Of a stretch of 36,958 nucleotides of DNA, positions 19,479 to 24,811 are shown in pieces. Position numbers and translations under genes: made by a program. The DNA is from Comamonadaceae bacterium (GTDB taxonomy: Bacteria; Pseudomonadota; Gammaproteobacteria; Burkholderiales; Burkholderiaceae_C), in contig CANFTU010000004.1 of NCBI GenBank assembly GCA_947450005.1, positions 1-36,958 of the forward strand, in the 5' to 3' direction. Every line of letters starts with the position of its first letter. Position 1 is the stretch's first letter. Below the pieces are notes generated by a model. It was not told where the DNA came from and did not search any database. It saw only the letters and a list, made by a program, of their open reading frames with translations.

Positions 19479-20117
19479 ATGGAAACACAGTCTGTGCCTG
19501 AGGCTGCGGGCGTAAAAGATGGCGGCGCACTCACGGCTGGCGACTATGGCTTTTTTGCGCTCATGGTCGTGGTGTTGATCGCCGTAACCTGGGTTGGTGT
19601 CTTGTCGTATGAAGAAGGCATGAACACCGAGCGGTCCAAACGCAACGGCGAAGCATGGGTCGCGTGGCTCACGGACAACAGCGCGAAACGGTTCGAACCG
19701 GACTACGCATTGGCCGCCTGCGCCGGAGGACCGCGCGCGGCAGCCGCACCTGAGGCTACCGAAAAGGTGCCTGTTGGCGAAGGAGAAACCCTTCTCCCTG
19801 CGGCACCAGCGGCCGCCGTAGCAAATGCGTGGGGCGCCTGCCTTGAAGAGATTCTGAAGAGCTCGGATTTGAAAGGACTGGTCAACCCATTCACCGGCAA
19901 AGCACCCGATCTGGTGGAGAAGTGCGACCCGGCAGACCACAACTTGCACGGAAATATCTCGATCGAGAAAAGTGTGGCGACCCCGGTGGGCTCTGCCGTA
20001 CCGTTCACGATTTCGCCGCTGGTGGCAGCGGATGCTATCGACACCAAATTGCAGCTCAAAGTGTCGATTTGCGATAAGGGGGCCTACCCCATCAAAGTTT
20101 CCGAATTCGAATTTTGA
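19479..20117 (+). CDS. Membrane-anchored protein of unknown family (one N-terminal TM; possibly pilin-like extracytoplasmic domain)
   Basis: TM YGFFALMVVVLIAVTWVGVLSY; four Cys in the exported part; NPFTG...C...GNISIEK...LQLKVSIC pattern; stop codon 8 nt from the next gene. Confidence 0.75.
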   Translation: METQSVPEAAGVKDGGALTAGDYGFFALMVVVLIAVTWVGVLSYEEGMNTERSKRNGEAWVAWLTDNSAKRFEPDYALAACAGGPRAAAAPEATEKVPVGEGETLLPAAPAAAVANAWGACLEEILKSSDLKGLVNPFTGKAPDLVEKCDPADHNLHGNISIEKSVATPVGSAVPFTISPLVAADAIDTKLQLKVSICDKGAYPIKVSEFEF

Positions 20118-20125
20118 GGTACCCC

Positions 20126-21766
20126 ATGGAAGAAAAAACCTACGTTTCAATCCATGAACTGGATGCCAAGTCCATCGTCGGTGCGACCGATGTAGAAGCC
20201 GATATACCGCGTGATTTGCCGCTGCGCAAATGGCTATACGCGTGGTTGCTGGATCCCCATATTGAGGGGAATTACCAGCAATTTATCGACAAGTGGGTCA
20301 GTATTTTGATTGTGGTCAATTTGTTCGCGCTGCTGTTCGAACAGGTGCCGGCCATTTTTGAGCCCAATGCCCATTTATTCCACTATTTCGACATTTTCTC
20401 GGTGGTGGTATTCACGCTGGAATACTTTCTGCGCTTTTATGTTGCGCCGGACGATCCCGATTTTGCCGGCAAACGCAGCGCCCGCGCCAGTTACCTGTTC
20501 AGCCCTTTTGCGATCATTGACTTTCTGGCGATTGCACCCTTTTATTTGAAGTTTTTGGGAATTCCGCTGGACTTGCGTTTCCTGCGGTTCCTGCGGCTGC
20601 TGCGGATCTTGAAGCTATTCCGCATCATTGTCCCGGCGTACCATGATTTTGTGAAGGCCAACGAAGGCCGCACCCTGCGCCAGAAAGTGCATGCACTGGT
20701 TTTCCCCGGCAAATTCGGCGGCAAACTGCAAGAGCTTTTTGACGGATTCATCGCCTTATGCGTGCTGCTGTCGGTTTTCGCCGTCATCATGGAGTCGGTG
20801 CAAAGCGTCAGCTACATGCTGAACATCCAGTTTGTCATCCTCGATGCAGTGATGGTTGGAATTTTCACCATGGAATACTTTATGCGCATGTATTCCTGTG
20901 TCGAAGAGCCTGGCTTCAAAGGCGCAGTCGGCGGCCGTATCAAGCAAGGCACGACGGTGTCGACTTTCATCGACTTCTTGGCGATATTGCCCTTCTTCCT
21001 GGAAGGCCTGCTGCACCATGTCCTGGATCTGCGGTTCTTGCGGGTATTCCGCCTGACGCGGCTATTGAAGCTGACACGCGGCAACGACGCGACGATCACC
21101 CTGGTCAAAGTGCTGTCCCGTGAATGGCCCATCATCAGCGCGTCAGCCTTCATCATGATCTTGCTGGTGATCATGACGGCGTCGCTGGGCTTTTTGTTTG
21201 AGCATGAGGCGCAGCCGGACAAATACGAAAACATCCCCACGACCATTTACTGGGCGGTTATCACGCTGGCCTCCATTGGCTATGGTGATATTTACCCGGT
21301 AACACCGATAGGCCGGGCCATGACCGTGGTCATGGCTTTCGCCGGCATCGGTATCTTCGCAATCCCTGCCGCTATTTTGGCCTCAGCCTTCAGCGACGAA
21401 TTGGTCAAAGAGCGCGAGGTTTTGAAGGCGGATCTGTACGACATCATGAAGGACGGAAAAATCAGCACCGACGAACTCGAGTTCATCCGCGCCGAAGCCA
21501 AGCGCCTGCACTTGAGTGTCGAAGAGGTGAGCGCGCTGGTCCGCCAGATTCAGCAAGAGTTGGAGCGGGAATCGAATTTCGCCGACATGCCGATTCACCA
21601 GATTGCCGCCAAACCGGAACTGGCCGTGGAGCACTACAAAACCCTGCTGAGCAATATCCGGCAGTTGGGGATGCTCATGGACCCGGCGGAGTTTGAAAGG
21701 CTTCGTGCGGCCAACAGCCGCCTGAGCCCCGACGAAGTGGAGTTGTGGAAAAAAATCAGAGGCTGA
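20126..21766 (+). CDS. Voltage-gated ion channel-like protein: VSD-VSD-pore with TerB-like C-terminal tail
   Basis: Two S4 segments (LDLRFLRFLRLLRILKLFRI and LDLRFLRVFRLTRLLKLTRG), one pore TIYWAVITLASIGYGDIYPVT; RBS GAGG just upstream of ATG 20126. Confidence 0.9.
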   Translation: MEEKTYVSIHELDAKSIVGATDVEADIPRDLPLRKWLYAWLLDPHIEGNYQQFIDKWVSILIVVNLFALLFEQVPAIFEPNAHLFHYFDIFSVVVFTLEYFLRFYVAPDDPDFAGKRSARASYLFSPFAIIDFLAIAPFYLKFLGIPLDLRFLRFLRLLRILKLFRIIVPAYHDFVKANEGRTLRQKVHALVFPGKFGGKLQELFDGFIALCVLLSVFAVIMESVQSVSYMLNIQFVILDAVMVGIFTMEYFMRMYSCVEEPGFKGAVGGRIKQGTTVSTFIDFLAILPFFLEGLLHHVLDLRFLRVFRLTRLLKLTRGNDATITLVKVLSREWPIISASAFIMILLVIMTASLGFLFEHEAQPDKYENIPTTIYWAVITLASIGYGDIYPVTPIGRAMTVVMAFAGIGIFAIPAAILASAFSDELVKEREVLKADLYDIMKDGKISTDELEFIRAEAKRLHLSVEEVSALVRQIQQELERESNFADMPIHQIAAKPELAVEHYKTLLSNIRQLGMLMDPAEFERLRAANSRLSPDEVELWKKIRG

Positions 21767-21857: not shown

Positions 21858-22766
21858 ATGGACATCCATTCCGCGAAAAAAACCTTGATGGAGATCCTTG
21901 ACGGATCCCCGGAGCACAAAAGCAGCCACTATGTGGAACTGCTCATCACCGTGGTCGTCTTGATGAACTGCTCGGCGGTGATCCTGGACTCGGTTCCTGC
22001 GATTCACGCGGAGTACCGTGAATTCTTTCACGAGCTCGAGTTTTGGAGCGTGATGTTTTTCACGGTTGAATACGTTTTGCGGGTCTGGTCGCTGGGCGCC
22101 AAATATGCTGCTGGTGAGGGTGGCGCTTGGAAAGGCCGCCGGCAATACATGTTCAGCGCTTTTGGGCTGGTTGATTTTTTTGCGACCATGCCGCATTACC
22201 TGCACATGTTTTTCCCCACCTTGGACCTGCGGATTCTGCGCGTCTTGCGGTTGCTGCGGATTCTTAAACTCTCTAAATACAACACGGCATTGCAGGACCT
22301 CTTCCACGCCGTTAATTCCGAGCGCCGCGCCTTCGGCTCTGCGGCCTTTTTGCTCTTGATTGCAACCATTGTGTCGGCCTCACTGATGCACTTTGCTGAG
22401 GGCCATGAGCAACCCCAGTTTTTCGGCAGCATCCCGCACTCCATTTACTGGTCCATTGTCACCATCACCTCAGGCTATGGCAACGTGGAGCCGGTGACCA
22501 AGGCGGGTGAAGTCATCGCCTTGCTGACCGGTTTTCTGGGCGTGTGTATGGCGGCCATCATGACCGGTATCGTGGCTTCCGCGTTTTCCAACCAGCTGTC
22601 GCGCAAAAAAGCGGCCTACCAAAGCCAGTTGCGGCAGGTGCTGGCTGACGGCGTTGTCAGCGATGCCGAGCGCGAGTCGCTACGGGTCCTGCAGATGAAA
22701 TACCGGCTGTCCGATGCCCAGGTGCAAGCCGCCATGGACGAAGCCAAAATTGGTATGCCCAAGTAA
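21858..22766 (+). CDS. 6TM voltage-gated channel-like protein with non-canonical filter TSGYGN
   Basis: S4 LDLRILRVLRLLRILKLSK; pore SIYWSIVTITSGYGNVEPVT; C-terminal LADGVVSDAERESLRVLQMKYRLSDAQV; start uncertain (21837/21840/21858). Confidence 0.9.
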   Translation: MDIHSAKKTLMEILDGSPEHKSSHYVELLITVVVLMNCSAVILDSVPAIHAEYREFFHELEFWSVMFFTVEYVLRVWSLGAKYAAGEGGAWKGRRQYMFSAFGLVDFFATMPHYLHMFFPTLDLRILRVLRLLRILKLSKYNTALQDLFHAVNSERRAFGSAAFLLLIATIVSASLMHFAEGHEQPQFFGSIPHSIYWSIVTITSGYGNVEPVTKAGEVIALLTGFLGVCMAAIMTGIVASAFSNQLSRKKAAYQSQLRQVLADGVVSDAERESLRVLQMKYRLSDAQVQAAMDEAKIGMPK

Positions 22767-22772
22767 ATCACC

Positions 22773-23702
22773 ATGACAGCCCTTCAACTCTCGCCGCTGC
22801 AGCGGCTGCAGCGACGCACCTACGAAATTCTGGACGGCGCAGTCGCCGACAGCAAAAGCCAAGCGTGTGAGATTTTCATCGCGGTCTTGGTGGTGGCCAA
22901 CGTGCTGGCCATTATTTTGGAGTCGGTGCATGAGCTGCACGAGGCCTACGAGGTGTATTTCCACTATTTCGACTTGGTCAGCGTCATGGTCTTCAGCGTG
23001 GAGTTTGTGCTGCGGGTCTGGTCCTGCGGCATGAAATACGACCCCGTGCCGGGCAGCGCGTGGCAAGGCCGCAAGGACTACGTCTTCAGTCCTTTCGGAC
23101 TGGTGGACTTTTTCAGTACGGTGCCGTTCTATCTTCAGCTCATCTTGCCCGGCGCCGACCTGCGCGTACTGCGGATGTTCCGGCTCTTGCGGATTTTCAA
23201 GCTGTCGCGCTACAACAGCGCGATGGACGACATGTTCGAAGCCATCCGCTCCGAAAAAGACTCTTTTTCTTCGGCATTTTTTCTGTTGTTCATCAGCTGC
23301 CTGTTGTTCTCCAGCCTGATTTACATCATTGAGGGCCCAGACCAACCGGAAGTGTTCCCGTCCATCCCGGCGGCCATGCACTGGTTTGTGCTGACCATTA
23401 TTTCCGGCTGGGGAAATGTCGACCCCGTGTCTTTGGTCGGCGTGATTTTGGTGGTCGTCACGCAAATTTTGGCCATCGCCTTGGCCGCGATCTTGACCGG
23501 TGTGGTGGCAACCGCCTACACCGCGCAAGTGCAACGGCGTGAGGCCTTGTATGAGATGGAGGTGCGCGAAGTCCTTGCCGACGGCGTTGTCACCGAAGAA
23601 GAGCGACTCAAACTCAAGTCGCTTCAAATGCGCTACGGCATCACAGACGAGCAAGTCGAGGCTATTGCAGCGCAAGTACAGGCGGAAAAAAAGGCAAGCT
23701 AG
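22773..23702 (+). CDS. 6TM voltage-gated channel-like protein with non-canonical filter ISGWGN
   Basis: S4 ADLRVLRMFRLLRIFKLSR; pore AMHWFVLTIISGWGNVDPVS; C-terminal LADGVVTEEERLKLKSLQMRYGITDEQV. Confidence 0.9.
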   Translation: MTALQLSPLQRLQRRTYEILDGAVADSKSQACEIFIAVLVVANVLAIILESVHELHEAYEVYFHYFDLVSVMVFSVEFVLRVWSCGMKYDPVPGSAWQGRKDYVFSPFGLVDFFSTVPFYLQLILPGADLRVLRMFRLLRIFKLSRYNSAMDDMFEAIRSEKDSFSSAFFLLFISCLLFSSLIYIIEGPDQPEVFPSIPAAMHWFVLTIISGWGNVDPVSLVGVILVVVTQILAIALAAILTGVVATAYTAQVQRREALYEMEVREVLADGVVTEEERLKLKSLQMRYGITDEQVEAIAAQVQAEKKAS

Positions 23703-23746: not shown

Positions 23747-24811
23747 TTATGTTTTCAACCGGCCCATCAGGCTGTTGAATTCGTGCTCGCCCAAGGCGCG
23801 CATGTGGGCCGCTTGGTCCGCAGTCACAAGGTTCAACTCCAGCATCGTGCTCACCAGATGGTCGCGCGAGGCGGCCGGCGCAACATGGTGACGAGCCTCT
23901 TCCTCGGATTCGCCAAAGAGCGCGACCATCAAGGTCTTGCCTACGATGTTCATCAATAAGCCGAACAAAACCAAGCCGCAGAACATGGTGGTACCTGCAA
24001 TCACCCGGCCCCAGAAAGTCACCGGGTACATGTCGCCATAACCGGTTGTGGTCAGCGTCACCACAGACCACCACATTGCGGCGGGAATCGAGGTGAAGAA
24101 TCGTTTGTCTTCGCCAATGGTGTTTCCGCTCACAGGGTCCACTGGCAAAAACTTGGCCGCTTCCGGCGGAGCGTCGGCGGGCAGCGGTTCGACTTTGAGC
24201 TTTTCATCGAGCGCGGCCTGGCCTTCTGCAATATGTTCGGGTGAGTACAAAACGCCTTCGGTGTAGTACATCAGCGAGCTGGAAATCATGACCACCGAAA
24301 ACAAGGCAATAAAGTAAATGCGCAAGTTCGTGGAGATCGATGTGCGCTGTGCTTTGTCACCCAAAGCCAGGCTTTGCGCCGCCATCTTGACCATTTTGAG
24401 CACTCGCAGCACCCGCACCACCCGCACCACCCGCAAGGCTTTTCCGCCTTTCAAGGCCGAGAGGTTCAGCAGCATCAAATAACTTGGCAGGATGGATATC
24501 AGGTCCACCAGACCCCAGAAACTGAATATGTAGGCCAAGCGGTTCGCCGCGAAATACACGTTAGCCAAGTAATCCACCGTGAAAAACGCCACCGCGCACA
24601 ACTCGACCACCTGAAAGGCATGCGCATACGTGGTAGCCCATGGCTCCACGGTCTCCAGCGCCAGGGACAAGCAGGAGACAAAAATCCAAAAATTCACCGC
24701 CTGAACCCAGCGGTGAAAGGCTATGGAATGGGGCACGGTGAACATGGCGCGCATCAAGCCGGGTTCGGCTTGGTGGTGGGATGCCAAATGGCCATTGGCT
24801 GAGGTATTCAT
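23747..24811 (-). CDS. 6TM voltage-gated potassium channel-like protein
   Basis: S4 LRVVRVVRVLRVLKMVK; pore AAMWWSVVTLTTTGYGDMYPVT; long S5-pore linker. Confidence 0.92.
   Translation of the reverse strand: MNTSANGHLASHHQAEPGLMRAMFTVPHSIAFHRWVQAVNFWIFVSCLSLALETVEPWATTYAHAFQVVELCAVAFFTVDYLANVYFAANRLAYIFSFWGLVDLISILPSYLMLLNLSALKGGKALRVVRVVRVLRVLKMVKMAAQSLALGDKAQRTSISTNLRIYFIALFSVVMISSSLMYYTEGVLYSPEHIAEGQAALDEKLKVEPLPADAPPEAAKFLPVDPVSGNTIGEDKRFFTSIPAAMWWSVVTLTTTGYGDMYPVTFWGRVIAGTTMFCGLVLFGLLMNIVGKTLMVALFGESEEEARHHVAPAASRDHLVSTMLELNLVTADQAAHMRALGEHEFNSLMGRLKT
24401..24436. repeat. Four tandem 9-bp units in the S4-coding region
   Basis: cactcgcag / cacccgcac / cacccgcac / cacccgcaa; encodes R-V-[VL] triplets on the minus strand. 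Confidence 0.85.

Follow-up and report, generated by a model that had tools for sequence, protein, structure and literature searches.

A conserved one-residue-short selectivity filter in two paralogous bacterial voltage-gated channel subunits

Two adjacent genes of a Comamonadaceae bacterium, here called C and D, encode voltage-gated channel subunits whose selectivity filters are one residue shorter than those of their canonical relatives. Few protein signatures are as conserved as the TxGYG filter, and a changed number of ion sites within it has been studied mostly by mutation. Here, a natural deletion has been fixed and preserved in both daughters of a gene duplication, beside a complete filter. 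The genes are small and bacterial and are found in Limnohabitans isolates, which makes them directly testable. We analyzed the whole stretch of 36,958 nucleotides that carries them (the window) together with homologous loci from related genomes.

Results

C and D lie at the end of a same-strand module of four genes, A to D, and are followed by the convergent gene E. The features are as follows.

19479..20117, + strand: A, 212-aa single-pass membrane protein with a predicted periplasmic domain
20126..21766, + strand: B, voltage-gated channel subunit with two voltage-sensor domains, one pore and the filter ASIGYGD
21858..22766, + strand: C, 302 aa, six-helix voltage-gated channel subunit with the filter TITSGYGN
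22449..22484, + strand: end of the pore helix and filter of C, W-SIVTITS-GYGN, seven residues from Trp to Gly
22773..23702, + strand: D, 309 aa, six-helix voltage-gated channel subunit with the filter TIISGWGN
23382..23417, + strand: end of the pore helix and filter of D, W-FVLTIIS-GWGN, seven residues from Trp to Gly
23747..24811, − strand: E, separate Kv-like channel with the canonical filter TTTGYGD

Both filters were found in open frames at the positions originally predicted, with TITSGYGN of C at 22461-22484 (its Trp at 22449-22451) and TIISGWGN of D at 23394-23417 (its Trp at 23382-23384). B (W-AVITLASI-GYGD) and E (W-SVVTLTTT-GYGD) have eight residues at this place. E adjoins the module in some lineages only (10 loci) and lies outside its core.

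C and D score 101.5 and 93.0 bits against Ion_trans (curated cut-off 25), and their S4 helices carry a basic residue at every third position (RILRVLRLLRILKLSK in C, RVLRMFRLLRIFKLSR in D), as do both sensors of B, which has two Ion_trans stretches and two S4 arginine ladders. Their best PDB sequence matches are Kv1.2, Kv1.3, Kv4 and KCNQ, and Foldseek searches with AlphaFold models of C and D returned Kv/KCNQ folds; these models, built on alignments of 17 and 16 rows, have a mean pLDDT of ~60, mostly <50 in the filter, too low to inform on its geometry. With Kv/KCNQ channels and their bacterial kin (PF00520 Ion_trans, VIC superfamily), C and D have in common the Ion_trans domain, the S4 arginine ladder and a pore loop with W...T and G-aromatic-G. 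They differ from them by the filter that is one residue short, by Asn in place of Asp, by Trp in place of Tyr in D, and by an invariant T-G in S6 (IMTGIVAS, ILTGVVAT), where B reads AIPAAILAS. Neither subunit has (i) TxGYG at the canonical distance from the pore-helix Trp, as in K+ channels, (ii) a filter of TVGDG or TIGET type at canonical length, as in NaK and CNG channels, or (iii) a TLESW-type filter, as in bacterial Nav channels. The latter (NaChBac type) are likewise six-helix bacterial voltage-gated channels, whereas C and D lack TLESW and are of K+-channel descent.

The C-terminal tails of C (22608-22763) and D (23538-23699) show a weak likeness to TerB that stays under the cut-off (E 0.02 and 0.002), and the tail of B aligns with both, with a DG...E motif in common; such a tail may serve in assembly or in metal binding. 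A has Cys at four invariant positions (C81, C121, C149 and C198), yielded no match to a known family and is a possible accessory subunit of the channel. In promoter and terminator scans, the signal was no richer than in shuffled sequence.

To follow the filter beyond the window, GTDB species genomes were searched with C. The resulting 80 loci, the best 80 of 106 matches, come mostly from metagenome-assembled genomes (MAGs) of freshwater Burkholderiales (Comamonadaceae, Limnohabitans, Rhodoferax and Oxalobacteraceae), a few of them with odd organism labels and probably misnamed, and include two isolate genomes, Limnohabitans JirII-31 and Jir61; since similarity to C was the selection criterion, the sample is biased to close kin. 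Within these best 80 of 106 matches, the seven-residue spacing is present wherever the pore was readable, in C (80/80) as in D (70/70), and three more D homologues end at a contig edge ahead of the pore. The spacing is eight in every readable canonical comparator (67 B homologues and 27 class-level relatives); two further class-level relatives, in which the pattern did not parse, were canonical when inspected. The filter of B is canonical in all 78 homologues read from the best 80 of 106 matches. The one-residue shortening proposed from a single genome is thus confirmed across the sampled loci.

The codons of C and D vary synonymously while the filter residues remain constant, and dN/dS at unsaturated distances amounts to 0.027-0.046 for C and 0.014-0.033 for D. 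Purifying selection on both genes is strong. The window's genome is a fragmented draft of 246 contigs, which could speak for a sequencing, assembly or frameshift artefact or for a decaying gene. Assembly error and gene decay are, however, excluded by the synonymous variation together with the low dN/dS, which also agree with the earlier reading that no frameshift is present, and the filter has identical length in isolates and MAGs; an artefact is refuted and retains practically no probability.

The exchange of Tyr for Trp noted in the second filter proved invariant in D (70/70), and the same position varies in C (Y70, F4, W2, S2 and N2), both counted in the best 80 of 106 matches. The fixed Trp of D and the variable aromatic of C suggest that the two filters are non-interchangeable and occupy different positions or serve different roles. 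S/A changes in the filters of C and D were compared for correlation and were too few in number.

A strict DNA pattern of the short filter matched 1 of 399 order genomes and 3 of 301 family genomes, twice in each matching genome and in all cases in C and D only, and a reversed-pattern control gave zero matches in the order and family genomes. These counts are lower bounds because AGY serines and rare variants of the filter escape the strict pattern. With a looser pattern, the short filter was detected in the window's genome only among 399 phylum genomes; the sole match beyond it, in G1118, falls in a non-channel ORF and was set aside as chance. Three other genomes of the window's genus are without the short filter according to the DNA pattern, and plasmids and phages contain no homologue at ≥60% identity.

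We located the missing residue by alignment. Both phmmer comparison with Kv structures and profile-profile alignments with B set the gap between Ser and Gly, so that the lost residue is best aligned with Val/Ile76 (KcsA numbering) and Ser with Thr75. Since B has Ser75 and the relative L090 has TSVGYGD, TS-V-GYG to TS-GYG would be the shortest path. Here the original prediction has to be revised: it had placed Ser at the V/I filter position, whereas the profile alignments favor Ser at Thr75 with Val/Ile76 lost. We also looked across the pore-loop distances for a local compensating insertion, the finding that could have undermined the prediction, and found none nearby. The IP motif and Trp are 6 apart in all rows, and the Gly residues of filter and S6 are 11 apart in 71/71 D, 65/81 C, 66/67 B and 21/27 relatives and 10 apart in most remaining rows, which leaves the distance from Trp to Gly (7 versus 8) as the only consistent spacing difference.

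These alignments bear on the reading that K+ selectivity is kept, with SGYGN lining a near-normal filter by means of a pore helix one residue shorter or a stretched strand. GYG is present in most C homologues, and Asn in place of Asp also occurs in hERG, a K+ channel with the filter GFGN. However, the pore loop has no compensating residue, the gap falls inside the filter in profile alignments, and Trp invariably replaces Tyr in D; we regard retained K+ selectivity as distinctly unlikely.

In a tree of 95 rows from which the filter columns were left out, C (100/99) and D (100/99) each form a clade and are joined as sisters (98/99), with the canonical relatives outside. The short filter therefore defines a clade, as expected for the inherited deletion common to both subunits that had been proposed. 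The class-level relatives are ~30-40% identical and all have canonical filters; the nearest, L089, has the S6 signature GVC..ALLTGIVANAF in common with C and D and the filter TTVGYGD. Because C and D are sister clades and readable canonical kin keep eight residues, the sequences place one ancestral deletion between the divergence from these canonical relatives and the duplication that gave C and D. On a sensor-only tree, descent of the first voltage sensor of B from the C/D lineage was weakly supported (80), and we do not claim it.

Among the best 80 of 106 matches, the order A-B-C-D on one strand with close spacing is found in 61/80 loci, in all of which A adjoins B directly upstream; many of the other loci are interrupted at contig ends or rearranged. 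The flanks of the module vary, with surA-ksgA/barstar/hrcA at the window and other contexts elsewhere. In 16 genomes picked via C, D is present in 15 and a B-type double sensor in 14, the absences falling in draft genomes, and full-length B occurs, among 151 family genomes, in exactly the two that have C and D. In Oxalobacteraceae, the module is dispersed and each of B, C and D keeps its own filter type; in G1055 and G1057, B and D are divergent neighbors, and C is found ~6-7 kb away on their contig. Both the gene order and the joint occurrence of the genes speak for a functional link of C and D, and of B with them, and the unit under selection looks like A-B-C-D. The pairing of C with D originally suggested is thereby upheld as a functional link and given up as the whole unit, B being an equally constant partner.

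Discussion

Tentatively, and at somewhat below even probability, we propose a heteromeric voltage-gated cation channel of altered selectivity, composed of B, C and D. One filter residue, best aligned with the Val/Ile of the K+ filter, was lost once before the gene duplicated into the paralogues C and D. B, C and D would co-assemble, perhaps with the single-pass A as an accessory subunit, and one or two short strands (S-GYGN, S-GWGN) would stand beside complete ones (SIGYGD), so that the ion-binding stack would lose its fourfold symmetry. The short strands would remove carbonyls of the S2/S3 sites, by which K+ selectivity may be weakened or other cations such as Na+ may pass. Loss of Val76 would take away one carbonyl layer in a homotetramer and create an asymmetric filter in a heteromer with B; we infer the stoichiometry and the conduction of the B/C/D channel. 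That this channel is an obligate heteromer of three pore-subunit types, one double-sensor with a complete filter and two with deleted filters, asymmetric and with a selectivity novel among K+-channel-derived channels, appears rather unlikely. Counting against a B/C/D heteromer, operon neighbors can act separately, and a few species have Ser or Asn in place of the filter Tyr, which C alone tolerates.

If the subunits do co-assemble, they would provide (i) a bacterial model for the workings of asymmetric filters and (ii) a prokaryotic heteromeric voltage-gated channel with division of labor. The double-sensor B represents a second unusual architecture. A limited search of the open-licence literature retrieved neither a report of the short filter nor a description of a double-sensor single-pore bacterial channel.

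C and D might instead form channels without B, either as a C/D heteromer or as two homotetramers, with a three-site, non-selective filter; B would then be a separate K+ channel and the operon would merely group channels of one physiological response. Each of C and D has a complete voltage sensor and pore, and the two are mutually closest kin and directly adjacent. A paralogue of B with two voltage sensors and a single pore, on contig C37 of the same genome (L154 7074-8858), has no C/D neighbors, and because this stand-alone paralogue exists, B-type channels need not contain C or D. Yet B is nearly constant with C and D, even in broken-up operons, and we consider channels without B, and an operon of this merely grouping kind, unlikely.

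The heteromer that we tentatively favor finds a parallel in the eukaryotic KvS subunits (Kv5, Kv6, Kv8 and Kv9), which are functional only in heteromers with Kv2 and thus pair a canonical subunit with dedicated partners. A similar division of labor is possible for B, C and D, and the co-occurrence of C and D with B is consistent with subunits that depend on a heteromer in this way. In contrast to the putative B/C/D assembly, KvS subunits are eukaryotic, are not encoded in an operon and have filters of normal length. This precedent also bears on a modulatory or silent role of C and D, in which they would join B, tune gating through their voltage sensors and block or lower conduction. Altered filters, an intact S4 and a constant canonical partner would fit such a role. 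However, C and D are constrained in pore helix and filter beyond the apparent need of a non-conducting pore, and normal filter length in KvS speaks against the analogy; we consider silent subunits quite improbable.

Altered or lost K+ selectivity is plausible from structure-function work on filters. In K+ channels, the TVGYG carbonyls form four sites, and the three-site variants of Derebe et al. 2011 are reportedly non-selective. NaK and CNG/HCN channels have altered K+-type filters with fewer ion sites, and NaK ends in Asn as C and D do; these channels keep the canonical spacing and lose sites via substitution, whereas C and D lose a residue. The NaK filter TVGDGN is described as having two of the four sites only and as non-selective, and restoring TVGYGD as giving a four-site, K+-selective filter (PMC9822992, PMC8689586).

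Several neighborhoods contain further transport genes. In the Oxalobacteraceae loci L083, L084 and L085, C lies near genes for a TrkA-domain protein, a DUF1538 protein, a Na+/H+ exchanger and a CitMHS protein, hinting at a role in Na+/K+ balance, and in L138 and L139 of the same family a second D-type subunit, also with a short GWGN filter, is encoded elsewhere in the genome. A bacterial Nav channel is located near the module in several relatives. In L042, L048, L058, L061, L063 and L064, D is followed by an ion-channel island that encodes a protein with DUF4337, a Kv channel of E type on the opposite strand, a bacterial Nav channel with the TLESW filter and another channel with two voltage sensors. 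In L065 (7900-9291) and in relatives of this gene in other loci, D is followed by a gene that combines a cyclic-nucleotide-binding domain with a ZIP-like permease.
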